A stretch of 20,674 nt of DNA from a virus: the IMG/VR virus record IMGVR_UViG_3300032677_000199, positions 1 through 20,674 of that record. One strand, written 5' to 3'. The notes beneath the pieces are model-generated. The model saw nothing but the letters and a program-made list of their open reading frames with translations. It made no database searches and was not told where the DNA came from. Position 1 is the first letter of the stretch, and each line of letters begins with the position of its first letter. Shown piece by piece: positions 930 through 20,084 of the stretch. A program made the position numbers and the translations under genes.

Positions 930-1709
930 ATGGAAAATATTCATTTCATATCTGGCCTGCCCCGTGCCGGCACAACATTACTGTCATCAATTTTAAAACA
1001 AAATCCCAAGTTTAGCAGTTCGATATCGGGTCCGTTGGCTCGCTTTGTTAGAGCCATCATTGAAGAATCGCAATCACAGGGCGGGTATCGATTTCAGTGT
1101 CCTGCCGAAAAGCGTAAAGAGTTAATACTTAATGTGGCAGACACTTATTATAAAGACAGCAATGACACAGTGTTTGACACTAATAGAGGCTGGACATATT
1201 TGACCCCTTTGTTGGCAGATCTTTATCCTAAAGCAAAAACTATTGTGTGTATACGCAGTATTCCCTGGATCATTGATAGTTTTGAAACACTATTTGCCAA
1301 GAATCCCTACGATGTACCTCTTATGTTCCCACAAGGAGCTGGTGTTAGTGTGTATAGTCGAGCCAAATACCTTACTGACCCCAGTGCGTTTGTGGGATTC
1401 GCTTATGACGGAGTCAAACAGGCTATGTTTGGTCCTAACAAAGAAAACATCATGATAGTACAGTATGATCAACTGGCTAAAAATCCCAAATTAGTCATGA
1501 AAAAACTATACGAATTCATCGGCGAACCATGGTACGAACATGATTTTGACAATGTAGTAGGTGACTACGATGAATTTGACACTGACATGAACATTAATGG
1601 CTTACATCATGTACGTCAAAAAGTACAATTTAAAGAACGTGAACCAATCATACCAATGGATTTATTCAATCATCTTGAACAGTTGGATTTTTGGAAACAG
1701 ATGAAGTAA
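930..1709 (+). CDS. Sulfotransferase family protein (PAPS-dependent)
   Basis: The 259-residue protein is a cytosolic-type sulfotransferase, predicted to move a sulfo group from PAPS to an acceptor such as a sugar hydroxyl. The N-terminus carries the 5'-phosphosulfate loop SGLPRAGTTLL (8-18). The 3'-phosphate-binding motif is visible as CIRSIPWIIDSF (107-118), with Arg109 and Ser117. The C-terminal part MIVQYDQLAKNP...LYEFIGEPW (175-201) is the usual family pattern of a loading strand followed by the helix-GEP segment. There is no signal peptide or membrane segment. The gene is followed after 3 bases by a glycosyltransferase-like gene, so co-translation and a shared glycan substrate are likely. 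The acceptor is not predictable. The family call is firm. Confidence 0.85.
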   Translation: MENIHFISGLPRAGTTLLSSILKQNPKFSSSISGPLARFVRAIIEESQSQGGYRFQCPAEKRKELILNVADTYYKDSNDTVFDTNRGWTYLTPLLADLYPKAKTIVCIRSIPWIIDSFETLFAKNPYDVPLMFPQGAGVSVYSRAKYLTDPSAFVGFAYDGVKQAMFGPNKENIMIVQYDQLAKNPKLVMKKLYEFIGEPWYEHDFDNVVGDYDEFDTDMNINGLHHVRQKVQFKEREPIIPMDLFNHLEQLDFWKQMK

Positions 1710-1712
1710 GCA

Positions 1713-3089
1713 ATGCCTATGACAGACCACGATGCAGTAAAACAAACTATAGAAATTTTTTCTCGTGCTGATCTACTGGATGAAATAGTATATTTACTAA
1801 CAACTTTTGAAAAACACAAAGTAGTACCAAATGATCTGTTGGGAAATGATTTATACTGTTTTGGTTATAATAAAGCCAAAAAATTTTTCAAGTCTATAGA
1901 ATATGGCGAGCAAGCTCTAGAACAAGCCAAATCTATAGAAGAAAGATTGGCTGTTTCATTTAATCTAGCCAAAGTATATCTATCTGCCAACAAACCAAAC
2001 AAAGCGGTAGCCGCATTCAAATTTATGAATTCTCATACTGATATCGGAGCTGAGGGTATGCTTGATTATTCTGCGGCGCTTTTTGCCTGTAACAGAAAAG
2101 ACGAGTCATATGAAATATTAAAAAAATTAGAAGAAAATCTTTGGAAATTTGATTCTAACATGGCTGACTCTATATTGTTTAATATGGGTGTGCACTATAT
2201 AGCCCGCGGTGATTTTAAAACAGGTATGGAACATCTTTCGATTGGCCGCAATCTAAGGGTATTTGGATCCTATTCAAAAGTTACTGATGGCTTGCCCATG
2301 TGGGACGGCAAACCTTATCCCGGTAAACATTTATTATTTGTGGCAGAAGGTGGTATTGGTGATGAAATTATCAATGTTAGATTTGTTAAAAATGTACTAG
2401 CCATGGGCATGACCTGTTCTATAATGTCAGTACATGGTATTATCGACGTTTATAGTCATTTAGGATTTGCAAAACGTATCAATATCAATCAATACAGTAA
2501 AAAAGACTACGACTACTGGACTCCAATGATGGACTTGCCTAAAACGTTGAATCTAGATTCAAATGAATTATGGACTGGACCATACCTACAAGCCAAACCA
2601 GAATTTGTTGAAAAACACAAAACCACAGTCCCTGGTAAATTCAAGGTAGGGTTGCGTTGGGCCGGCAATGCCAGATACGATCACGAATTACACCGCACAT
2701 TAAACTTGACCAGCATCTTAAATGCCATGCCCAAAGATAGCGACTGGTCCTTGTATTCTATACAGCGTGATGTAGGTATGGAACAATTACCTCAAAATCC
2801 TCGAGTCAAAGACCTCAGCTCTGAACTAACTACGTTTGAAGATTTGCTGGGAATAATGGCAAATTTAGATTTAATCATTACCAGTTGTACCAGTGTAGCA
2901 CATGCTGCGGCAGCATTAGGCAAAAAAACTATTATATTAGTACCAATTATGGAATATTATACTTGGGTAGAAGGAAAACAAACTTCCAGCTGGTATGGCG
3001 ATCATCTTAGATTAATAAGACAAGTCACTCCAGAAATTTGGAAAGAAGCATACACAGAATTACGTGAAGTACTCAAGGACATCGAATGA
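1713..3089 (+). CDS. TPR-helical protein with C-terminal GT9-like glycosyltransferase domain
   Basis: This 458-residue protein has two parts. Residues 1 to about 190 are helical pairs with TPR character, such as YGEQALEQAKSIEERLAVSF and VYLSANKPNKAVAAF. From about 197 the pattern is that of bacterial TPR/GT-B proteins related to heptosyltransferases (GT9): MWDGKPYPGKHLLFVAEGG, GIGDEIINVRFVKN (214-227), VGLRWAGNA (312-320) and ITSCTSVAHAAAALG (389-403). The last normally binds the nucleotide-sugar diphosphate. Such proteins often act on sugar chains or glycoproteins, but the acceptor here is unknown. The ATG at 1713 lies 3 bases after the previous stop; a second in-frame ATG at 1719 is an alternative. 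The last four bases overlap the next start (ATGA). The domain call is good; the activity is inferred. Confidence 0.75.
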   Translation: MPMTDHDAVKQTIEIFSRADLLDEIVYLLTTFEKHKVVPNDLLGNDLYCFGYNKAKKFFKSIEYGEQALEQAKSIEERLAVSFNLAKVYLSANKPNKAVAAFKFMNSHTDIGAEGMLDYSAALFACNRKDESYEILKKLEENLWKFDSNMADSILFNMGVHYIARGDFKTGMEHLSIGRNLRVFGSYSKVTDGLPMWDGKPYPGKHLLFVAEGGIGDEIINVRFVKNVLAMGMTCSIMSVHGIIDVYSHLGFAKRININQYSKKDYDYWTPMMDLPKTLNLDSNELWTGPYLQAKPEFVEKHKTTVPGKFKVGLRWAGNARYDHELHRTLNLTSILNAMPKDSDWSLYSIQRDVGMEQLPQNPRVKDLSSELTTFEDLLGIMANLDLIITSCTSVAHAAAALGKKTIILVPIMEYYTWVEGKQTSSWYGDHLRLIRQVTPEIWKEAYTELREVLKDIE

Positions 3090-5899
3090 AAAAAACTATT
3101 GGATTTGTAACAACAGGATTAAAATTTAACGGACATACTGTAAATGAAAAAGCATTGGGTGGTAGCGAGTCGGCATTAACTTACATGGCCAGAGAAACTG
3201 CCAAATTAGGTCACGATGTTACAGTCTACTGTGAATGTGATGCCCCAGGCTGGTATGACAGTGTAGAGTATAGAACCCTGGATCAGTATACCAAAGACAA
3301 CAAGTCACAGTTTGACGTATTAATAGTCAGTAGATTTACTGATTTTTTAGCCATGGCAGTTGACAGTAAGATGAATATATTGTGGCAACATGATATTGAC
3401 ACAGCTAATTTCCGTGATGCTATAGGCTGTTCGGATCGTGTTTTTTGTTTGAGTGATTTTCACAAGTCGTTATTTGTTAAAAATTACGACATTGATCCTA
3501 CAAATTACGTTTGGAAAACCTCCAACGGGTATGATCAAGAAATAATTACTGAATACGTACCTTACGAAGCAAAGAAAAACAACTACATCTACGCATCTCG
3601 ACCTGAGCGTGGGTTAAAATTATTGTTGGAAAAAATATGGCCCGAAATAGTTGAACGTAATCCCGATGCTGTGCTGCACATCTGTACATATGAACATACT
3701 TTAGAATTGCCAGAGGAAGTTAAAAAGATACACAAAGAAGTTGAAGACCTGTTGGAATATAGCCGAAACATTAAACAGATTGGACACTTGCCAAAACGTC
3801 AATTTTACAATCTATTAAGTAACTGTGCTTACATGGTATACCCAACAAATTTTCCTGAAATTTCCTGTATCAATGCCATCGAAGCACAGTATAATGGATG
3901 TTTAGTTATCACTAGCGACGAATTTGCCTTGTCTGAAACAGTTAAAACCAATACTAAAGTCAAGGCAGAATACGGTAGTATTGATTACGTAAACAATTTC
4001 TTGGATTTACTTGATAAGTATCAAGGCGATGTATACGAAGAAGAAGTAGCCAAAGGTAAAAAGGCTATAGAGTCATATGCTTGGAATAGAATAGCTAAAT
4101 CTTGGAACGCTGAGATTGATTTTATGTTTAACAAGAGACATGACAAGTATAAAGATAAGATTATAGATCAATTGGTTTACAACTCTGATATAGTGGCTGC
4201 TTGGAAATTAACGGGGGATGAAAAATATCGTAAGCTATTAGACCTAGCCAAAGAAACAAATTTAACAGATTCATGGTTTGACTCGACAAATACTGATAGA
4301 GATGAATATTTTCCTACCAGAACGATTGGCCTAATCGAATTAATAAAAAACGAAATTACGGAGTTTCCTAACAAAAAATTAAAAATATTGGACTTGGGTA
4401 GCAACGACGGTATACTTAGTTTGCCATTATTAAAAAAGTTTGCCAATAATATCGAATCAGTAATCATGTACGATACTTCTAAAGAAGTATTAGAGCACGT
4501 TAACAAAACTTACGGACATAAATATCCGCAAATTAAAACAATCAATGATGATGTAAGAAATGTGTTAAATTATGATTTTGAACCTGACATTATTATTGCT
4601 GGAGAAATACTAGAACACGTTGAAGAAACACAACAGTTCCTTGATTTTTTAATGAAACTGGCCAATAAAAATACACTATTTTATTTTACTGTACCTATGG
4701 GACCGTGGGAACAGATGGAAAAACGTAGAGACGAAGAAATACATCATGTACATCACTTTGAATTAAACGACATACGTGAAATTTTTAAAAATGTAAATTT
4801 AAATATTGAATTCAGCGGGGAAGAAGCGTTGGGACGTCGTGGTGAAATGTGTAGCAATTGGATGTTTTGGTTTAGAGCGTCAAAAGATGATAATATTAAA
4901 TTTGATGAAGTTGACTATCAAGACAAGTGGATCAAGACTAGGCCCTATAAAAAGATTTCAACTTGTATGATAGTACGCAACGAGGAAGACAACCTCAGTC
5001 GCTGTTTAAAGACTGTTTATCAGTTCAGCGATGAAATTATAATTGTAGATACCGGATCAATCGATTCTACTAAAGACATTGCCAAAAGATTTACAGATAA
5101 AGTTTACGATTTGGAATGGAAGGAAGATGATGGGCTAGGCAATTTTTCCAGAGCTAGAAACTATTCTATTAGCCTTGCTACTGGAGATTATATCTTTTGG
5201 ATTGATGCCGATGAAGAACTTGAAAATAGCATGAGATTACACAAGTATATTATTAGTGATTACTATGATGGTATATTGTTGAGACAAGTACAGGCCATGA
5301 GTAAAAAATCTCACGACAGCGGTGTAAATATTGATGTTATGCATGATAGATTCTTTAAAAACAACATTGGCATACAGTTTACAGGTGTGATACATGAGTA
5401 CCCTAGTCGCAATGATGAAGATTTCTTGGGTAACAAAATGTTTTGGCAAGATCATATTTACGTGTTACATTATGGATTGGCCAATCGAGAAACACTAAAA
5501 CGCAAAGCCTTGAGAAGGAACACAGATCTCATCTATAAAAATGTAAAAGTCTATCCCAAACGCATCTTTGCTAGACACTACATTATAGTAGATTACTGGA
5601 GTCAGTTTATCACTGGACACCCTAACCCCGATATAAAATGGCTACAGAAAGGCATGGATATTTGGCATAATGATTTGAAAAAATGCGGTGACGATTGGAC
5701 CATACGATTATCTTTGGGAGTAGTACAACATTTCTACAGTTATTGCGCCCAAAACGGTATTTCCTTCAAGGGTCGTTTGCCTGAAAAAGTAGCTTTTCAA
5801 AATGGAGAAAACGGGGAAACCATAGATTTTTACGTTCTGGATAAAGAAGAAGAAAGCGATTTCTTCTTGCACTATCTTGCTAATTTCAAACGGCCATAG
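3086..5899 (+). CDS. Three-domain fusion: GT4-type glycosyltransferase, SAM methyltransferase, GT2-type glycosyltransferase
   Basis: The 937-residue protein holds three enzymes in one chain. Residues 1 to about 345 are a GT-B glycosyltransferase (GT4-like): the GGSES loop (25-29) and the EX7E motif Glu258-Glu266 inside FPEISCINAIEAQYNG. Residues about 395-610 are a class I methyltransferase: motif I DLGSNDG (436-442) and GEILEHVE (506-513). Residues about 620-937 are a GT-A, GT2-like transferase: STCMIVRNEEDN (625-636), DTGSIDST (655-662) and a metal-binding DAD (707-709). The expected product is a glycan carrying a methylated sugar, with donors unknown. The start overlaps the previous stop (ATGA), so the two genes are translationally coupled. 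There is no membrane segment. The domain calls are firm; substrate and order of reactions are unknown. Confidence 0.85.
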   Translation: MKKTIGFVTTGLKFNGHTVNEKALGGSESALTYMARETAKLGHDVTVYCECDAPGWYDSVEYRTLDQYTKDNKSQFDVLIVSRFTDFLAMAVDSKMNILWQHDIDTANFRDAIGCSDRVFCLSDFHKSLFVKNYDIDPTNYVWKTSNGYDQEIITEYVPYEAKKNNYIYASRPERGLKLLLEKIWPEIVERNPDAVLHICTYEHTLELPEEVKKIHKEVEDLLEYSRNIKQIGHLPKRQFYNLLSNCAYMVYPTNFPEISCINAIEAQYNGCLVITSDEFALSETVKTNTKVKAEYGSIDYVNNFLDLLDKYQGDVYEEEVAKGKKAIESYAWNRIAKSWNAEIDFMFNKRHDKYKDKIIDQLVYNSDIVAAWKLTGDEKYRKLLDLAKETNLTDSWFDSTNTDRDEYFPTRTIGLIELIKNEITEFPNKKLKILDLGSNDGILSLPLLKKFANNIESVIMYDTSKEVLEHVNKTYGHKYPQIKTINDDVRNVLNYDFEPDIIIAGEILEHVEETQQFLDFLMKLANKNTLFYFTVPMGPWEQMEKRRDEEIHHVHHFELNDIREIFKNVNLNIEFSGEEALGRRGEMCSNWMFWFRASKDDNIKFDEVDYQDKWIKTRPYKKISTCMIVRNEEDNLSRCLKTVYQFSDEIIIVDTGSIDSTKDIAKRFTDKVYDLEWKEDDGLGNFSRARNYSISLATGDYIFWIDADEELENSMRLHKYIISDYYDGILLRQVQAMSKKSHDSGVNIDVMHDRFFKNNIGIQFTGVIHEYPSRNDEDFLGNKMFWQDHIYVLHYGLANRETLKRKALRRNTDLIYKNVKVYPKRIFARHYIIVDYWSQFITGHPNPDIKWLQKGMDIWHNDLKKCGDDWTIRLSLGVVQHFYSYCAQNGISFKGRLPEKVAFQNGENGETIDFYVLDKEEESDFFLHYLANFKRP

Positions 5900-8690: not shown

Positions 8691-10013
8691 TTATTTTCCT
8701 AAAGGAGGTGGGTTGGGTGGCAAATTGCCCCCGTCGTTGCCATTGTCGGCCTGCGGTCTTAGCATCTGGCTTAGGCTTTGTCTACTAGGTATATTGCCCT
8801 GATCACTGGTGTTTGTGGTATATGGGTTATTCACAAAACTGCTACGCTGTGTTTCGTTACTTGTGCCCCAATCTAACGGAGTTCTAACATTGTCACTGAT
8901 AGCCTGCCATCTAGCGCCGTCAAATCTAAACAGTCTATTGGGAAAATAATCTAATCTCAAACAATAATCTCCATTTGATGCTGGTGAAGGAAAGCTCACA
9001 CCAGGTGTTACTGGTAGTCCATTGGGAGCCTTATCGTCTCCTGTTAAGTAGCCCATGGTATATCCAAATGTAGATGGGCTAGTCTGTGCGTCTAGTTGAT
9101 CGGGGTTGGATTGATGACCAAACAAGCCATCTTCTGTGCCGGGAACAATATAAAATGATACATTATCGTATCCACTAAGCGGCACATCTACATTGGCCTG
9201 TACTAACAGTGCGTCATTAATCTCTAAATCTTTATTTCTAGTTGAGTCGACATCGCCTACTGTGGTTGGTTTTTCTATTAATGCCCAGTAAGTAGGATCG
9301 TGTATATCTGTTCCTGGCGGTATATTTTTAGTAGCTTCGTAGTATTTTCCACCATTATCGACGGTCATGCCAGCAGGATAAAAATTACCCGAATCCCAAA
9401 TATTATCTGGCATCAATGGTTGATTTATTATTTGTTGAAACTCTTGAGCATTGACCATTGGAGTGGCTTTGACACGCCAAGTATGCGGTAACCACGTCTG
9501 ACTAAAACCTTCCGAAGCATAGTTGGCGTCTTGTATCACATAATATCGTGGCAAAGCTCTGGATATATTACTGTTTAACGGATAATAATCCTTTAAGTTA
9601 GGCAACTCTAAAACATCACCCGCCATGAGTTTGCGTCCAAAACTATCTATCATATCGTTATAATGTGTGGTCAAGAATAGTGTATCGTTTTGTAAAAATA
9701 GACCAAATTGTGTTAGATTAAAATCAATGTCTTGATTGGTATATACCATACGCATGATGTATATGTCAGGCGCATACGCTCTATCTCTATTTTCTAATAA
9801 CAGTAAATCCTCTATAAACAAGGGATTTTGGCTTGTATAAACCGGCAAAGTCGCATCACTGTTTCCGGGATTATCACTAGTGTCGACAATGGGTCCCATG
9901 TATTTGTGTACATAAACATCCACGCCGCCAACTTGGTACCTTTCTGATATTGTACGATCTAAAAATTGGTAATCATTGGTTCTGTTTGGTTTATATAATG
10001 ACAACCTAGGCAC
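8691..10013 (-). CDS. 14: Neck protein gp14 with inserted surface modules, GTG start
   Basis: This homologue of T4 gp14 sits in the head-tail neck. VDVYVHKYMGP (31-41), FGLFLQNDTLFLTTHYN (103-119) and then MAGDVLELPNLKDYYPLN (130-147) follow the T4 gp14 pattern (VECYYVPREY, FGMQVQDEVTLSIN, EGDLIYFPMD). At 440 residues it is far longer than T4's 256. The extra part includes a CBM5/12-like motif (206-247: W, then GKYYEATKN, then DPTYW) and a DGARW module (347-372). The C-terminus is Pro/Gly/Asn-rich (PPNPPP). The start is GTG, supported by AAGGAG 6 bases upstream; this overlaps the end of the endonuclease gene by 8 bases. Confidence 0.75.
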   Translation of the reverse strand: MPRLSLYKPNRTNDYQFLDRTISERYQVGGVDVYVHKYMGPIVDTSDNPGNSDATLPVYTSQNPLFIEDLLLLENRDRAYAPDIYIMRMVYTNQDIDFNLTQFGLFLQNDTLFLTTHYNDMIDSFGRKLMAGDVLELPNLKDYYPLNSNISRALPRYYVIQDANYASEGFSQTWLPHTWRVKATPMVNAQEFQQIINQPLMPDNIWDSGNFYPAGMTVDNGGKYYEATKNIPPGTDIHDPTYWALIEKPTTVGDVDSTRNKDLEINDALLVQANVDVPLSGYDNVSFYIVPGTEDGLFGHQSNPDQLDAQTSPSTFGYTMGYLTGDDKAPNGLPVTPGVSFPSPASNGDYCLRLDYFPNRLFRFDGARWQAISDNVRTPLDWGTSNETQRSSFVNNPYTTNTSDQGNIPSRQSLSQMLRPQADNGNDGGNLPPNPPPLGK

Positions 10014-10674
10014 TTGTAACTCCTTGTGCTAATTTTTTAGCAAGTTTATTTTTCTTCATAGTGGCAGTTCTGTGAGCAATTTCTTCGGCCGTCATTTTGT
10101 AACCAAATCTTCCGTTTTTACTACCAGAACATTTTCTTTTTTCAATATGTTCTGCTGATTGTTTTTTGCCTTTCATTGCCGCACTTTGCTTTGCTTTTGA
10201 CTCTGCTGTTCTAATAACACCTTTGTGCGAAGCACTAGCATTTTTGCGATGTTCATCAGTCCATTTTTTGCCGTATGCAGGATGATTCGACCCTTGTTTT
10301 CCGTACATAGGATTGCCGGCTCCGGACATTCTTATACTTTTAATTTTAGACCCAGCTACTTTAATATTTTCGAATATTCGTCCAGTAACCTTGTATCGCT
10401 CTTGTCCAGATTTTTCACGATATAACATGCAACTAAAGGCATTCCACATTTGATATTGGTGTTTTTTAGAACTTACCATTTTAGTCAGTAGCCAATGAGC
10501 TATAAAATGCTCACGAGCAGTGAGCTTAACCAAATTATTCTGCTCGTCTGTTCCCTGTAAACTACGCGGAATAATATGATGTGTTTCGCTATAGCTAGTT
10601 AAAAATGCCCGTGTTTGGGCACGATTGATAATATCGTAGTACCAACTAGTATATTTGTTATCAATGAACGGCAT
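10006..10674 (-). CDS. HNH homing endonuclease with NUMOD3 motifs
   Basis: This 222-residue free-standing endonuclease has an N-terminal HNH domain, ETHHIIPRSL (30-39), NNLVKLTAREHF (46-57) and His60. It is followed by NUMOD3-type DNA-binding repeats: GNPMYGKQGSNHPAYGKK, TDEHRKNASASHKG and KGKKQSAEHIEKRK...NGRFG. Such enzymes cut cognate phage genomes lacking the gene and spread by repair. The gene lies directly upstream of gp14 and overlaps its GTG start by 8 bases. It is not inside an intron as far as can be seen, because neither flank is a split gene. A CTAAATA element lies 6 bases before the ATG, so its own message would be almost leaderless. The C-terminus is Lys-rich, which fits DNA binding. 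Confidence 0.85.
   Translation of the reverse strand: MPFIDNKYTSWYYDIINRAQTRAFLTSYSETHHIIPRSLQGTDEQNNLVKLTAREHFIAHWLLTKMVSSKKHQYQMWNAFSCMLYREKSGQERYKVTGRIFENIKVAGSKIKSIRMSGAGNPMYGKQGSNHPAYGKKWTDEHRKNASASHKGVIRTAESKAKQSAAMKGKKQSAEHIEKRKCSGSKNGRFGYKMTAEEIAHRTATMKKNKLAKKLAQGVTSA
10020..10025 (-). promoter_or_regulatory. Shine-Dalgarno deciding the GTG start of gp14
   Basis: On the minus strand AAGGAG is followed by a 6-base spacer and GTG (10013-10011). There is no nearby ATG with comparable support. The site lies inside the 3' end of the homing-endonuclease gene. Confidence 0.7.
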
Positions 10675-13045: not shown

Positions 13046-13573
13046 ATGGCACAACATTTAATGATAGACATAGAGGGACTGGCAACTACACCAGACGCTA
13101 CTATATTAACAATAGCGGCACAGAGTTTTAATCCATTTGGCACTGGCTATTATCTCGACCGTAACTTTTATTGCCGAGTGACCATCGAAAGTCAGGAAGA
13201 TAGAGAAGTCAATAACGAAACTATCGAATGGTGGGCCACTCAAGGTGCCGCTCAAGAAGAAGCATTTAACGAAGAAAATAGAATACCATTAGAAGAAGCC
13301 TTAGATGGTCTTTATAAACTGGCGTGGCAACATGATTTTATATGGGCCCAGGGTCCTACTTACGATATAAACATTTTAGAACATGCTTATCGTAGCCGTA
13401 ATAAAAAACAACCGTGGCAGTTTTACAAAATTCGTGATTGTCGTTCTGTAATCTCACTTTGGCCTGACTGCCCAACACCTCCAACAAGCCACCACGCACT
13501 TGAGGATTGTCGTAGACAAATCGAGAGATTACAAATGACACTTAAACATTTAGAAATAAAGGACATTAAATGA
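13046..13573 (+). CDS. dexA: DexA-like 3'-5' exonuclease (DEDDh)
   Basis: The 175-residue DnaQ-fold exonuclease is related to T4 DexA (227 residues). Exo I is DIE with Asp8 and Glu10. TIEWW (59-63) is the same as in T4 DexA (STIEWWKNQ). Exo II is PTYDINIL with Asp107. Exo III is HHALEDC with His149 and Asp154 in an Hx4D spacing. All four acidic residues and the general-base histidine are present, so it should be active on DNA or RNA 3' ends. It is shorter than T4 DexA, mainly in the middle and at the C-terminus. The stop overlaps the dNMP kinase start (ATGA), and both enzymes serve nucleotide recovery. It is transcribed from its own probable leaderless promoter. Confidence 0.8.
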   Translation: MAQHLMIDIEGLATTPDATILTIAAQSFNPFGTGYYLDRNFYCRVTIESQEDREVNNETIEWWATQGAAQEEAFNEENRIPLEEALDGLYKLAWQHDFIWAQGPTYDINILEHAYRSRNKKQPWQFYKIRDCRSVISLWPDCPTPPTSHHALEDCRRQIERLQMTLKHLEIKDIK

Positions 13574-14223
13574 TTATTGGGATTGTGGGTCTAATAGGCA
13601 GTGGCAAAGATACCATAGCTGATTATCTTCAGAATATCTATGGATTTCGTAGAGAATCTTTTGCCAGTACGTTGAAAGATGCTGTGTCTGCTGTTTTTGG
13701 CTGGGACAGAGCTATGTTAGAAGGCCGTACTAAATCCAGTAGAGAGTGGCGAGAACAAGTAGATGCCTGGTGGGCAGAAAGACTAGACATGCCAGAATTG
13801 ACCCCACGTCTAGTGCTACAGCGTTGGGGTACAGAAGTAGCACGTAAAAGTTTTCACGATGATATCTGGATTGCCAGTCTAGAAAATAAATTGCGTAGCA
13901 CACAAGATGACGTAGTTATCACTGACTGTAGATTTCCCAATGAAATACAATCTATTAAAAATGCCGGAGGGAATGTAATACGAGTAGTTCGCGGGCCAGA
14001 ACCAGAATGGTATCGGTTCGCAGAGATGGTCAATCAAAAATCCAGCCCCACACTTGAACACAGCTGGGCCCAGGTCAAGCTGGACAAATTCAACGTACAT
14101 GTGAGCGAAACTGCCTGGGCCGGCACTGAATTTGATCACATATTGGATAATAATCTAGACGGGTTAGATAATTTATACGAGCAGATCACACGTCTGGTTC
14201 AAGATCTCCGTGATGCCAGATAA
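13570..14223 (+). CDS. 1: Deoxynucleoside monophosphate kinase (T4 gene 1 type)
   Basis: The 217-residue P-loop kinase phosphorylates dNMPs to dNDPs for phage DNA synthesis. The Walker A is GLIGSGKDT (7-15). It is followed by IADYLQNIYGFRRESFASTLKDAV, the pattern of T4 gp1 (SGVKRSGKDTTADF, then the LAGPIKDAL helix). LQRWGTEVARKSFHDDIWI matches T4 'MQALGTDLIVNNFDRMYWV'. DVVITDCRFPNEIQSIKNAGG matches 'YYIVPDTRQDHEMDAARAMGA'. AAAGGA 6 bases before the ATG gives a good ribosome site, and the ATGA overlap couples it to the exonuclease. The last 38 bases are antisense to the zinc-binding HNH gene. The expected partner is the phage dNTP-synthesising machinery. Confidence 0.88.
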   Translation: MIIGIVGLIGSGKDTIADYLQNIYGFRRESFASTLKDAVSAVFGWDRAMLEGRTKSSREWREQVDAWWAERLDMPELTPRLVLQRWGTEVARKSFHDDIWIASLENKLRSTQDDVVITDCRFPNEIQSIKNAGGNVIRVVRGPEPEWYRFAEMVNQKSSPTLEHSWAQVKLDKFNVHVSETAWAGTEFDHILDNNLDGLDNLYEQITRLVQDLRDAR

Positions 14224-14691: not shown

Positions 14692-17600
14692 ATGGCACAA
14701 ACATTAGTCTCCCCTGGCGTAGAAGTTACAGTAGTTGATCAAAGTCAATACTTGCCCGCCGCAACTAACTCAGTTCCGCTAGTAGTAATAGCTACAGCGT
14801 CAAATAAATTATCAGCAGATGGTTCAGGTGTAGCCACAGGAACATTGGCAGTTAACGCAGATAAACTTTATCTAGCTACTAGCCAACGTGCGTTGAGTAA
14901 CTATTATGGATTGCCATTCTTTTATCAAACCACAGCAGGAACTCCTATTAATGGATACGAGCTTAATGAATACGGTTTACTGGCAGCTTATTCAGCCTTG
15001 GGTGTTACCAATCAGTGCTATGTATTACGTGCCAATGTAGATTTGACAGTACTTACCGCAAGCCTCAATCGTCCACTAGGCTCGCCAGCTAATGGTACTT
15101 ACTGGTTAGATACACTGGATACACATTGGGGCATATTTCAATGGAATTCAGCTACTAACAATTTTACCAATCAACTTCCTTTAGCCATAACTAATACTGA
15201 ATATCTATATTCTGAGTCTACTGTACCATTACAAACATATGGTAGCATAGGACAATATGCTGTGACAACCACTAGTACCAGCAATCCGGTTTATTATAAA
15301 CGCGGCGGACCTACTTCAGCTCAAGCACCAGACTGGTCACAAGGACCTTGGACTGCCGACCAACTTTATAACACTTGGGTGCTGGTAGGAAGTACAGAAT
15401 GGCAAACAGCTTGGGCCACAGTTCAAGGCCAAGCTACTCCAACGTCATTGACAGCAGGAAATATTATAATTAACGGTATTACTATTGCGATAGCATCCGG
15501 TAACACAGTAACTGATGTAACTACTCTTATCAATAATACTGGTATTACTGGAGTATATGCTGCTAACATTAGTGGTTCATTAAATTTATATTGTGATAGC
15601 ACTGCTAATTCCGGCGAAGGTACAATTACACTAGCTGGAAACAGCGCAAGTCTTATTGCTTTGGGGTTGACAGCAGGTACATATAATGCTCCTATCTTCC
15701 AAGCCAGTCCGAGTTATACAGTCCCGCAGTGGGCTACATACAGCGGTAGCACAGCTGAGCCAACTGGTTCTGTTTGGATGAAAACATCTAATGTTAATCA
15801 AGGCACAGAAATTATAATTAAAAAATATAATTCCACACTGGGAGTATATGTTACACAATCCTGTCCTGTTTATGGCAGCGACGCATTGGCCTTATATGGA
15901 TTAGATCCATCGGGCGGTGGCGCAACTATTGCTGCTGGATCTACCTACGCACAGAGCATTCCTTTTGACAACGGTACAGCTGGTTTATTGCTGTTGGAAC
16001 GCTTCTCAACAGGATCGACAATTATTGCAGGTAGTAATACTACTCAAACTTTTATAAACGGTAATACATTTACCATCAGTGCTACACAGCCTGGTACAGC
16101 AACTTTAACCACAGCAACTGCCACGATAAATGGCACTACTACAAGTGCGTTCATTGCGGCAGTTAGCGCAACAAATATCCCTAATGTTAGTGCTACTGTT
16201 AACTCTGCTGGAAATATTGTAATCACTCACAGCACTGGTGGAGACATTATCTTAACTAATGTTTCTGGAACTCCTGTGACTGCCGCTGGATTTACCACAG
16301 ATACTACACAAGTACGTCAAAATTATGTAAGTGGATCAGCTGCTGGATTGATACTATCTAACTGGGTTGGTACACCATTATTTTCATATACATCAAACAG
16401 CACAGCTCCTGATGTAGATCCTGCTACAGGTACATATTGGTACTACAGTGATCCAACTCAAGTAGATATCATGATATCTAATAATGGTTCATGGTACGGA
16501 TATCAAAATGTAACAACTGACAGCCGTGGGTATGATCTCAGTGCAACAAATGCTACAGGTCCTATTATCAGTAGCCTTGCTCCTACTACACAGACAAACG
16601 CGGCTCAGAGCCCGTTGGTACATGGTGACTTATGGGTCAATACTTCAGATCTAGAACTTTATCCGCTGTTGTATCGTTGGCAAAATGTCAGCGGCGTGGA
16701 TCAGTGGGTACAGATAGCCAATACAGATTCTACTACAAGTAATGGTATCATATTCCAAGATGCTCGTTGGGCCCCTAACGGTACAACAAATCCTGTCACT
16801 GACGCTTTGCCATCTATAGAAACTATGCTTACTAGTAACTATTTGGATCCAGATGCTCCAAACGCTGAACTATTTCCAAACGGAATATTATTGTGGAACA
16901 CACGTCGTTCAGGCTTTAATGTTAAGTCGTTTGAAGTAAATGCTTGGAATAATCAAGCATGGCCTACATACGAATGGAGTAGTACAACAGTATACAGCAT
17001 AGGACAATACGTAATGTACAACGGATTAGTTTATGCCTGTATTCAAAATAACACAGCATCAGAGCCAGATACAAGTCCTACTTATTGGTCTGTACAAACC
17101 GAGACTAATACTTGGAATAGTGCTACTGGTCTTCGTGTTGATGGCAGTCCTTATATGGGTCGTCAATCACAGAGAAAACTTATTGTAGATGCGTTGAGAT
17201 CAGCTATTGATACTAATACTGAGATACGAGAAGAACAAAATGTTTATAATCTTATCGCAGTTCCTGGTTATCCAGAACTAGCTCCAGAAATGAGAGTTTT
17301 AAATGATGACATCAACAATGTGGCATTTAACATAGTTGATACTCCATTACGTTTGTCTCCAACTGATGTGGTAACATGGGCTACAGACAATGGTGGACTA
17401 GGTTTAGTCACAGGCGACGGAAATTTGGCTATTGGCGATACTTATGCAGCCGCTTTTTATCCAAGTTGCCAAACAACAGACTTGTCGGGTAATTTGGTAG
17501 TAACAGCACCAAGTCACATGATGTTGCGTACTATTATACGTAGCGACGAAGTAGCTTATCCTTGGTTAGCTCCAGCTGGCACACGACGTGGGTTAGTTGA

Positions 17601-18105
17601 CAATGCTCAATTGCTGGGATATATTGACTCTATTACTGGTCAATTTTTGCCATTAAGTGTGGGCCAATCATTGCGTGATGTGCTTTATACTAACAACGTC
17701 AATCCAATAACATTTATTCCAGGTGTAGGAATTACTAACTTTGGAAATAAAACATTACAAGGCACTGCTACAGCATTAGATCGTATTAACGTAGCGCGGT
17801 TAGTATGTTTTATACGTTCTAGACTTAACACAATAGGAAAACAATATCTGTTTGAACCTAACGATGCTATAACACGTAATGAAATACGCAATAGTATCAA
17901 CAGTTTGATGATAGATTTGGTAGCTAAACGTGGAATCTATGACTATTTGGTGGTATGTGATAATACAAATAATACACCTACTACTATAGATCAAAATCAG
18001 TTATGGGTAGACATAGCTATAGAGCCAGTGAAAGCAGTTGAATTTATCTATATTCCATTGCGTATAGAAAACACTGGAGCAATTGCAGCGCAGGCGGCAG
18101 CGTAA
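14692..18105 (+). CDS. 18: Tail sheath protein gp18, greatly enlarged
   Basis: This is the contractile sheath subunit. The N-terminus MAQTLVSPGVEVTVVDQS and the C-terminal third are typical of T4-like gp18: RRGLVDNAQLLGYIDS, LPLSVGQSLRDVLYTNNVNP, FGNKTLQG, LDRINVARLVCFIRSRLN and the final strand EFIYIPLRIEN. The length of 1137 residues compares with 659 in T4. The extra mass lies in the middle, which faces outward in T4. It includes two similar beta-rich inserts (about 254-332 and 443-535, each beginning like AGNIIINGITI). There are also four 'G..YW..T' modules (134-164, 357-391, 578-605, 643-673) and a CBM5/12-like motif (762-803). Identity is firm; the inserts are probably surface decoration. 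Confidence 0.92.
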   Translation: MAQTLVSPGVEVTVVDQSQYLPAATNSVPLVVIATASNKLSADGSGVATGTLAVNADKLYLATSQRALSNYYGLPFFYQTTAGTPINGYELNEYGLLAAYSALGVTNQCYVLRANVDLTVLTASLNRPLGSPANGTYWLDTLDTHWGIFQWNSATNNFTNQLPLAITNTEYLYSESTVPLQTYGSIGQYAVTTTSTSNPVYYKRGGPTSAQAPDWSQGPWTADQLYNTWVLVGSTEWQTAWATVQGQATPTSLTAGNIIINGITIAIASGNTVTDVTTLINNTGITGVYAANISGSLNLYCDSTANSGEGTITLAGNSASLIALGLTAGTYNAPIFQASPSYTVPQWATYSGSTAEPTGSVWMKTSNVNQGTEIIIKKYNSTLGVYVTQSCPVYGSDALALYGLDPSGGGATIAAGSTYAQSIPFDNGTAGLLLLERFSTGSTIIAGSNTTQTFINGNTFTISATQPGTATLTTATATINGTTTSAFIAAVSATNIPNVSATVNSAGNIVITHSTGGDIILTNVSGTPVTAAGFTTDTTQVRQNYVSGSAAGLILSNWVGTPLFSYTSNSTAPDVDPATGTYWYYSDPTQVDIMISNNGSWYGYQNVTTDSRGYDLSATNATGPIISSLAPTTQTNAAQSPLVHGDLWVNTSDLELYPLLYRWQNVSGVDQWVQIANTDSTTSNGIIFQDARWAPNGTTNPVTDALPSIETMLTSNYLDPDAPNAELFPNGILLWNTRRSGFNVKSFEVNAWNNQAWPTYEWSSTTVYSIGQYVMYNGLVYACIQNNTASEPDTSPTYWSVQTETNTWNSATGLRVDGSPYMGRQSQRKLIVDALRSAIDTNTEIREEQNVYNLIAVPGYPELAPEMRVLNDDINNVAFNIVDTPLRLSPTDVVTWATDNGGLGLVTGDGNLAIGDTYAAAFYPSCQTTDLSGNLVVTAPSHMMLRTIIRSDEVAYPWLAPAGTRRGLVDNAQLLGYIDSITGQFLPLSVGQSLRDVLYTNNVNPITFIPGVGITNFGNKTLQGTATALDRINVARLVCFIRSRLNTIGKQYLFEPNDAITRNEIRNSINSLMIDLVAKRGIYDYLVVCDNTNNTPTTIDQNQLWVDIAIEPVKAVEFIYIPLRIENTGAIAAQAAA

Positions 18106-18177: not shown

Positions 18178-18834
18178 ATGGCAACATCATCATTAACTAA
18201 CTTTACAATTCCATTAGGAGCTGACGGGCAAAGTGCTTCAACACAAGGCTTATTAATGCCTAAGTTAAGTTTTCGTTACAGAGTATTTTTCCAAAACTTT
18301 GGCACAAGTACTCCTACTACCGAATTAACCAAACAGGTGATGACATTTGATCGTCCTCACGTTACATTTGAAGAAATAAAATTGCCTATCTATAACAGTA
18401 CTATTAAAGTAGCTGGGAAGTACACATGGACTGATGTTACTTGCGAACTACGTGATGATGCCACTGGAGCAGTAAGTCAATTAGTAGGAGAGCAGTTACA
18501 GAAACAATTAGACTTTATGGAACAAAGTTCAGCGAGTTCGGGTATTGATTATAAGTTTACTACACAGTTCCAAGTATTAGATGGTGGCAACGGAGCAAAT
18601 ACTCCGGTAATCTTAGAAGAATGGCAAATATTAGGATGCTATCTCAAAGACGTGAACTACAACAAGATGGATTATGGGACCAGCGAAGCTGTAAAGATTT
18701 CAATGTCAATAACATTTGATAACGCAATTCAAGTAAATGCAGCTGGAGCCAGCAAAGGTGTTGGTCAGGCCATATCACGTACTAACGGCGGCATTGCTAC
18801 TGGAGCAGGCACAGCGTCTGGTGCTGCTGGTTAA
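18178..18834 (+). CDS. 19: Tail tube protein gp19
   Basis: The 218-residue homologue of T4 gp19 (163 residues) forms the hexameric rings of the inner tail tube. The family pattern is visible in LSFRYRVFFQNFG, DRPHVTFEEIKLPIYNSTIKV (the long conserved loop and strand), then EEWQILGCYLKDVNYNKMDY and ISMSITFDNAIQ. The C-terminal 30 residues are Gly/Ala/Ser-rich and probably flexible. It follows gp18 as in T4. It has its own late element and a hairpin upstream, which would allow expression independent of the sheath. The start ATG has a CGGAG ribosome site. Confidence 0.9.
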   Translation: MATSSLTNFTIPLGADGQSASTQGLLMPKLSFRYRVFFQNFGTSTPTTELTKQVMTFDRPHVTFEEIKLPIYNSTIKVAGKYTWTDVTCELRDDATGAVSQLVGEQLQKQLDFMEQSSASSGIDYKFTTQFQVLDGGNGANTPVILEEWQILGCYLKDVNYNKMDYGTSEAVKISMSITFDNAIQVNAAGASKGVGQAISRTNGGIATGAGTASGAAG

Positions 18835-18839
18835 ACAAT

Positions 18840-20084
18840 ATGTCATATTTTGGGCAGGGCAACAGCTTTCTACAGCCGGCTACTAGTCCATTACTTAAGG
18901 ATTATACTCACGCCGCCAAGACTTTCCTTAGCAATGGGTATGGACTGGTTCCTCGCTTTAAATTTTTATTTCATGTAGTATTCAATATAAACACAGCGCA
19001 AATTCCGCAACTGCAAGCTCTATATGGATCTGGCAACAACGCCACAATCGGATTAATGGTTAAGAGTGTTGATTTGCCTAAATTTAAAATAGATACCACC
19101 ACTCTTAATCAGTATAATCGTAAACGGTTAGTTCAGACCAAAGTACATTATGAACCAAGTAAAATAACCTTACACGATGATCAAGATGACACTATACGTA
19201 CCATGTGGTATAATTATTACACATATTATTACGGTGATCCTAGCAAACAGTATCAAGGAATACCCACAACATCTGGCACATTGGGACAAATAGCCACATA
19301 TTTTAACGGCTTTAGTTATAATGCTAATGATATCTATAGTAATACTTTGCAAAATGCCAACTGGGGATTTGTGGGCGAAAGTCCCAATGATGGTACCAAT
19401 CCTTTGTTTTCAGTAGGATCTGGTGGAAAACCACGGTTCTTCAACGATATTACTATATACGGAATGAGTCAAAAAACATTTGCTGCCTGGACTATGATAA
19501 ATCCTATTATTCAGTCATGGAACAGTGATACGTACGATTATCGAGAAGGAGCAGGCACCATGCAACATGATGTCACTATAGAGTATGAAGCTGTAAAATA
19601 CTATACTGGCAATATTGGGGCAGAACAAGCTAGCTCAGTGGTACCTGGATTCGCTGATCCAGCACATTACGATACACAAGCTTCTTCTATTACTACAACA
19701 ACAGGACGCAACTCTGTTTATCATCAAGGTGGAATGGTTGGGGCTACTCAAGGCAGTATTGCCGATCTACAGTCAACGGCCAAAGGCTCTGGAGCTTTAA
19801 ATCAAGTATTAGGTGCTGTACAAGCAGCCACTACAGTGTATAATTCATTTCAATCAGGCGATCCTTCTAGCGTAGCTGGGTTTGCCATGCAGGCCGCTGG
19901 ACCAACACAGTCTTTGTTAAATAATAATGGAATTCCGGCAATACCAGGTTTGGGATCAGTGGGCGCAATATTTGCCAATGCTCCTATAATTGCCAACAAT
20001 CCACAAAATAATTCTGCTCAAGCCAATGGGGTAGGAGTAAATGGTATAGGACCCAATGGCGTTGATATATCACAAGGACCTTAA
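18840..20084 (+). CDS. Tail-tube-fold protein, probably baseplate/tube junction (gp54- or gp48-like)
   Basis: The 414-residue structural protein has a tube-like fold. IGLMVKSVDLPKFKIDTTT, then NRKRLVQTKVHYEPSKITLH, then TIRTMWYNYYTYYYGD is the pattern of tube, tube-initiator (gp54) and tube-cap (gp48) proteins of myoviruses. A second conserved block, RFFNDITIYGMSQKTFAAWT...MQHDVTIEYEAVKYY, closes the barrel near residue 255. The last 150 residues are low-complexity Gly/Ala/Ser/Asn/Gln, ending in repeats of NGVGVNGIGPNG. T4 has no such gene directly after gene 19, so the exact T4 counterpart is uncertain. It starts 5 bases after the gp19 stop with a weak ribosome site and shares that transcript. 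Confidence 0.6.
   Translation: MSYFGQGNSFLQPATSPLLKDYTHAAKTFLSNGYGLVPRFKFLFHVVFNINTAQIPQLQALYGSGNNATIGLMVKSVDLPKFKIDTTTLNQYNRKRLVQTKVHYEPSKITLHDDQDDTIRTMWYNYYTYYYGDPSKQYQGIPTTSGTLGQIATYFNGFSYNANDIYSNTLQNANWGFVGESPNDGTNPLFSVGSGGKPRFFNDITIYGMSQKTFAAWTMINPIIQSWNSDTYDYREGAGTMQHDVTIEYEAVKYYTGNIGAEQASSVVPGFADPAHYDTQASSITTTTGRNSVYHQGGMVGATQGSIADLQSTAKGSGALNQVLGAVQAATTVYNSFQSGDPSSVAGFAMQAAGPTQSLLNNNGIPAIPGLGSVGAIFANAPIIANNPQNNSAQANGVGVNGIGPNGVDISQGP

Follow-up and report, generated by a model that had tools for sequence, protein, structure and literature searches.

The tail sheath protein encoded at positions 14692..18105 (+) of the 20,674-nucleotide window analysed here (IMG/VR record IMGVR_UViG_3300032677_000199, positions 1 to 20,674) consists of a conserved T4-type core interrupted by a long internal region that contains two copies of a flagellin-IN-type module and a CBM5/12 (chitin-binding-type) domain. 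Sequence and model comparisons establish the identity of these domains, the homology of the two modules, the modular gain and loss of domains between related sheaths and a relaxation of purifying selection on them, suggesting an outer sheath region with exchangeable domains whose role is probably one of accessory lateral adhesion. This reading as a whole, in which the contractile tail sheath of a RaK2/Atu_ph07-like jumbo myophage would have an adhesive role in addition, is moderately favoured over the alternatives considered below.

The reading frame runs from ATG to stop (1137 residues) and matches phrog_10581 (E = 1.5e-196 over residues 4–1129). Homology with T4 gp18 is supported by the Pfam family Phage_sheath_1C (PF17482; 51 bits against a cut-off of 26.9, residues 1028–1124) and by matches of residues 880–1130 to the solved T4 and KP1 sheaths (E ~1e-27). 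The top PDB matches of the full-length AlphaFold model (pLDDT 86.4, pTM 0.70) in Foldseek are contractile sheaths throughout (T4, KP1 and eCIS; probability 1.00, E values down to 4e-14); the full-length TM scores are low owing to the many domains, and the folds assigned to the inserts below are taken from domain-level results only. The gene lies in a myophage tail cluster together with a gp15-like stabiliser, a gp13-like adaptor, a deoxynucleoside monophosphate kinase (13570..14223, +; phrog_139, E = 2.9e-51; present in 106 related loci), which is found directly upstream of the sheath gene in RaK2 too, and a tail tube protein (18178..18834, +; phrog_4542, E = 4.6e-47; present in 139 related loci). 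The adjoining tail tube gene and the conserved N-terminal and C-terminal sheath features place the protein among the T4-type (gp18 family) sheaths. Among cultured phages the closest relatives are of the jumbo type (Atu_ph07, Phosso, PA5oct, RaK2 and others), and an uncultured relative with the same gene layout (L124) lies on a 345-kb contig. Directly after the tail tube gene, a 414-residue ORF (18840–20084, +) that is kept in 127 related loci contains two stretches resembling tail tube families and may encode a second tube-like protein.

The conserved core is divided between the two ends of the chain. Residues 1–118 (14692..15045, +) align with residues 1–116 of the XacN1 sheath (714 residues) and have the lowest dN/dS of the protein (0.07), while residues 815–1137 (17134..18105, +) match T4 gp18 from its residue 417 onwards (122 bits) and include the Pfam sheath_1C match; the XacN1 alignment resumes at approximately residues 790–805 and extends to near the C-terminus. 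As the two XacN1 blocks are separated by ~690 residues in the window sheath and ~270 in XacN1, growth has been internal with both ends intact, as proposed in the first-pass annotation. T4 gp18 (659 residues) shares the core fold and the C-terminal third with the window sheath, and in both proteins additional domains are nested between the ends. The stretch between the core parts of T4 gp18 comprises domains I and II (88–345, 258 residues; PMC3004832); the middle of the window sheath is 2.7 times longer, and neither IN modules nor a CBM were detected in T4 gp18. This arrangement, with at least three domains and the extra ones between the core halves, corresponds to the Type 3 multi-domain sheaths of large phages in the published classification (Evseev 2022), in which Atu_ph07 is already included.

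A length of ~1.7 times that of T4 gp18 had been noted earlier and is confirmed (1137/659 = 1.73). The accompanying description of the sheath as exceptionally long is not tenable, given published jumbo-phage sheaths of 1086, 1248 and 1283 residues (PMC9230969) and relatives of up to 1354 residues in the present set. Length as a novelty is ruled out by these published values together with BFVD entries of 1137–1283 residues; the window sheath is unusually large, but not record-size. Long multi-domain sheaths of jumbo phages are already established in PMC9230969, and such a length is ordinary for the group. The sheaths of Agrobacterium phage Atu_ph07 (1086 residues), described there as having five or more domains, and Sinorhizobium phage Phosso (1091 residues) belong to the same family as the window sheath (~42–44% identity over 64–67%) and carry insert 1, but no CBM5/12 was detected in either. 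The longer sheaths of LacPavin_0818_WC45 (1283 residues) and Mad1_20_16 (1248 residues), compared by description only, have five or more domains in published models, with no carbohydrate-binding module mentioned in the passages of PMC9230969 consulted.

Two of the inserted regions are copies of one module. Insert 1 (residues 244–336; 15421..15699, +) is a flagellin-IN-like beta-beta-alpha-beta-beta-beta module identified by profiles, model and Foldseek, and insert 2 (residues 441–545; 16012..16326, +), the ancestral copy, is related to it by hhalign and is present in all 74 aligned sheaths. Comparison of the two family profiles, built from 70–74 sequences, gave a probability of 96.5% (E = 7.3e-10, score 54.0), against maximum scores of 16.5 and 16.9 in 60 and 150 column shuffles, 16.5 for the reversed profile and no more than 15 for the inserts against other regions of the sheath. 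The relation is retained in the mid-distance subset (94.9%) and is weaker in the near clade alone (73%). The order of strands and helix in the AlphaFold model is the same in both inserts. The earlier proposal that residues ~254–332 and ~443–535 represent a single module is thus upheld by family profiles and by strand and helix order, but not by direct self-alignment, in which the pairwise score of 57 is not significant relative to shuffled sequences (47 ± 7.5; 241 of 2000 shuffles as good). The shared 'I.ING' opening that had been cited for the proposal was rejected as evidence of kinship, since the strings are not aligned: hhalign pairs ING 260–262 with ISA 462–464, and within insert 2 Asn456 is found in 18 and Gly457 in 49 of the 74 sequences. 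Four short 'G(T/D).W.(D/N)(T/S)' motifs visible in the alignment (residues ~135, 360, 580 and 646; 15076..16791, +) show a weak and only putative repeat relation, with the best pair (first and third) reaching 46% in hhalign.

Insert 1 forms a self-contained domain rather than part of the core fold, with pLDDT 89 and pTM 0.79 when folded alone. Its best PDB matches in Foldseek are flagellin (2zbi), FliD (6iwy), FlgE (5az4) and the sheath of A-1(L) (8kee), with E values of 0.03–0.09; for 2zbi and 6iwy the probability is 0.99–1.00 at E values of only 0.03–0.04, and 6iwy superimposes with a query TM score of 0.66 and an r.m.s.d. of 2.3. Insert 1 thereby has the outer-domain fold of flagellin and FliD. 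At the sequence level, the E ≤ 0.05 level for Pfam Flagellin_IN is reached by nine of 52 insert-1 family members, the best at 2.1e-5, and a segment of one relative (L112) exceeds the cut-off (24.6 versus 22.7 bits). Taken together, the profiles, the strand and helix order and the flagellin-type matches identify the inserts as copies of one flagellin-IN-type module. Unlike the outer domains of flagellin, FliD and FlgE, with which insert 1 shares its fold, the module is carried by a contractile sheath and not by a flagellum, and the window copy gives no match to the Pfam family, lying below its cut-off. A tblastn search of phage records with insert 1 of the window gave no match at E = 0.1, whereas the insert-1 profile finds Phosso (E = 1.8e-14) and Atu_ph07 (E = 2.4e-9), indicating that single-sequence searches are too weak for this module.

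The weak match of insert 1 to 8kee bears on a further possibility, namely a role for the inserts in anchoring folded tail fibres to the sheath or guiding them along it. The long fibres of the A-1(L) myophage fold back into a groove on the sheath (PMC10966104), and roles in tail appendages have been suggested in PMC9230969, but the window offers no link between a fibre and the insert modules and this role is very improbable.

The CBM5/12 insert (residues 761–803; 16972..17100, +) was overlooked in the first-pass annotation, as was a domain nested inside insert 1 of relatives. It matches Pfam CBM_5_12 over residues 761–799 (32 bits against a cut-off of 26.2), as do 18 of 33 sheath family members at E ≤ 0.01, and its closest solved structure is the chitin-binding domain of ChiA1 (1ed7; E = 6.5e-6). 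In the 74-sequence alignment, the loop that holds it comprises 44–49 residues in some sheaths and 6–21 in others. The core aromatic residues are common to ChiA1 and the sheath domain, with Trp656, Tyr662, Tyr670, Tyr675 and Trp696 of ChiA1 corresponding to residues 762, 768, 776, 781 and 799; these positions (W/Y, Y, Y/F, Y and W) are kept in 35–37 of 37 copies, and Tyr768, Tyr781 and Trp799 in all 37. Trp687, the main chitin-contacting residue of ChiA1 (PMC3701571), has no aromatic counterpart in any of the 37 copies, being deleted or replaced by a non-aromatic residue; in the window sheath it falls in a three-residue gap. Loss of the classical chitin-stacking tryptophan weakens chitin binding as the function of the domain and makes crystalline chitin an improbable ligand. 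The sheath domain further differs from that of ChiA1 in being part of a virion protein. A CBM on the neck fibre of A-1(L) shows no host binding (PMC10966104), and CBM-like folds on virions therefore need not be receptors.

CBM queries against 50,697 phage records matched tail-fibre and minor tail proteins. No CBM5/12 was found in other sheaths in these records at a search sensitivity limited to E values of ~1e-3 to 1, which leaves its absence from other sheaths unproven; the sheath matches of a second query involve flanking sheath sequence only. Within the window, the neighbouring proteins gave no credible match to an IN or nested module, and the best CBM match outside the sheath is a weak one (9 bits) in the ORF at 8691–10013.

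Comparison of the 74 aligned sheaths shows that the two modules are not equivalent. In contrast to the universal insert 2, insert 1 is missing as a block from one lineage, the sheaths of 1000–1025 residues (L043, L045, L046 and L054), and elsewhere it is plain, carries a nested domain of ~75 residues or contains 150–170 further residues. The nested-domain site (residues ~303–309; 15598..15618, +) is empty in the window sheath and occupied in many relatives. On an unrooted tree of core columns only, in which gain is not separable from loss, the state of insert 1 changes at least ten times and the presence of the CBM at least seven times, the latter at one loop. What distinguishes the members of three pairs of relatives (L012/L024, L016/L007 and L020/L011) is the nested domain; the flanking gene DNA is 79–87% identical, and 84–85% on either side of the domain in L012/L024. 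One sheath ORF (L163) has the nested domain twice, at residues 330–416 within insert 1 (conditional E = 6e-25) and at residues 561–640, where insert 2 starts (3e-24), a double occurrence that would fit two modules taking identical insertions.

These distributions bear on the main rival explanation, in which the extra domains are structural, contacting neighbouring subunits and cementing a long jumbo-phage sheath with no outside ligand. In phage 812, an extra sheath domain touches neighbouring subunits and is considered a stabiliser of the disc (PMC9230969); the universal occurrence of insert 2 is what would be expected of a structural part, and the CBM lacks its ligand tryptophan. For insert 2 this explanation is probably right. 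It is less so for the other inserts, as the CBM, insert 1 and the nested domain appear and disappear between close relatives whose sheaths are otherwise similar, which would hardly be expected if they made a required contact between subunits, and as an account of all the extra domains it is rather unlikely.

Median dN/dS values among 20 close relatives are 0.07–0.09 for the core, 0.18 for insert 2, 0.24 for the CBM and 0.27 for insert 1; with synonymous sites near saturation the values are rough, and their ranking is more reliable than their magnitude. Purifying selection acts on all parts of the sheath, though less strongly on the outer ones. The exchangeable inserts might alternatively be near-neutral passengers in exposed loops, or provide surface variation only, without a binding function. 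Their frequent gain and loss, their dN/dS above that of the core and their low-complexity Thr/Ser-rich sequence are consistent with such a view, but ratios of 0.24–0.27, even if rough near saturation, are well under 1, and together with the invariant aromatic residues of the CBM they indicate that its fold is under selection. Passenger status is accordingly judged unlikely, more so than a cementing role.

In the favoured explanation, the two chain ends form a standard sheath core and the residues between them comprise the ancestral insert 2, its second copy insert 1, itself the site at which further domains are inserted in relatives, and the CBM5/12 in the loop that precedes re-entry of the chain into the core. 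Domains I and II of T4 gp18 are exposed (PMC3004832), and from their nesting in the chain surface display of the inserted domains is a sound inference: by analogy they would be located on the sheath exterior, away from the tail tube as in Type 3 sheaths. Additional sheath domains are thought to be nonessential for sheath formation (PMC3004832; PMC9230969), and the inserted domains presumably take no part in contraction. The T4 precedent, the recurrent gain and loss and the relaxed constraint make an exposed accessory layer on every subunit the likeliest arrangement. Such domains could be retained for the weak multivalent sideways binding that hundreds of copies on each tail would give, possibly to glycans or polymers of the host surface or its surroundings. 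Since relatives gain, lose or enlarge some of the modules, the tail surface has the appearance of an evolvable display platform. A more specific proposal, that the sheath is an evolvable high-copy lateral adhesion surface in which the IN modules and the nearby loop act as sockets for swapped domains of glycan-binding type, is tentative and less probable than accessory adhesion as such; if true, tail-side stickiness would change between jumbo phages independently of the tail fibres.

The role of the extra domains in sheaths of large phages has so far been guessed, with adhesion and stability as the hypotheses (PMC9230969). Related sheaths that differ cleanly by single nameable domains at fixed sites offer natural pairs for testing domain roles. 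Through insert 1, the outer part of a contractile sheath becomes linked to the outer domain of flagellar proteins; the CBM5/12 fold, known in the records searched from phage tail-fibre and minor tail proteins, is now placed on a sheath. No description of a sheath CBM5/12 insert, of the assignment of the repeated module to the flagellin-IN type or of domain-by-domain gain and loss between closely related sheaths was found in the open-access literature searched.

Several further observations concern the relatives and the remainder of the window. Six sheaths of 1267–1354 residues (L039, L041, L042, L049, L052 and L057) have insert 1 enlarged to ~250–260 residues, and in L049, L052 and L057 insert 2 is also enlarged, to ~190 residues. 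On the 345-kb contig that encodes the L124 sheath, a giant ORF (L165, 1–13098; 4762 residues in full) annotated as a virion structural protein (phrog_10938, E = 4e-271) contains both a module of flagellin-IN type (E = 6e-8) and a CBM5/12 match that is weak and below the cut-off (18.8 bits), so that like module types occur in another protein of the same phage. In the window, an HNH homing endonuclease (10006–10674, −; phrog_655, E = 1.6e-42) lies between structural genes. The region 930–5899 (+), inside the virion-gene cluster, encodes a sulfotransferase (Pfam Sulfotransfer_3, E = 2e-15), a TPR protein and a 937-residue fusion of GT1, methyltransferase and GT2 domains; no relatives of these genes were found in the limited flanks of the neighbouring loci fetched, and their products could modify virion or host glycans.
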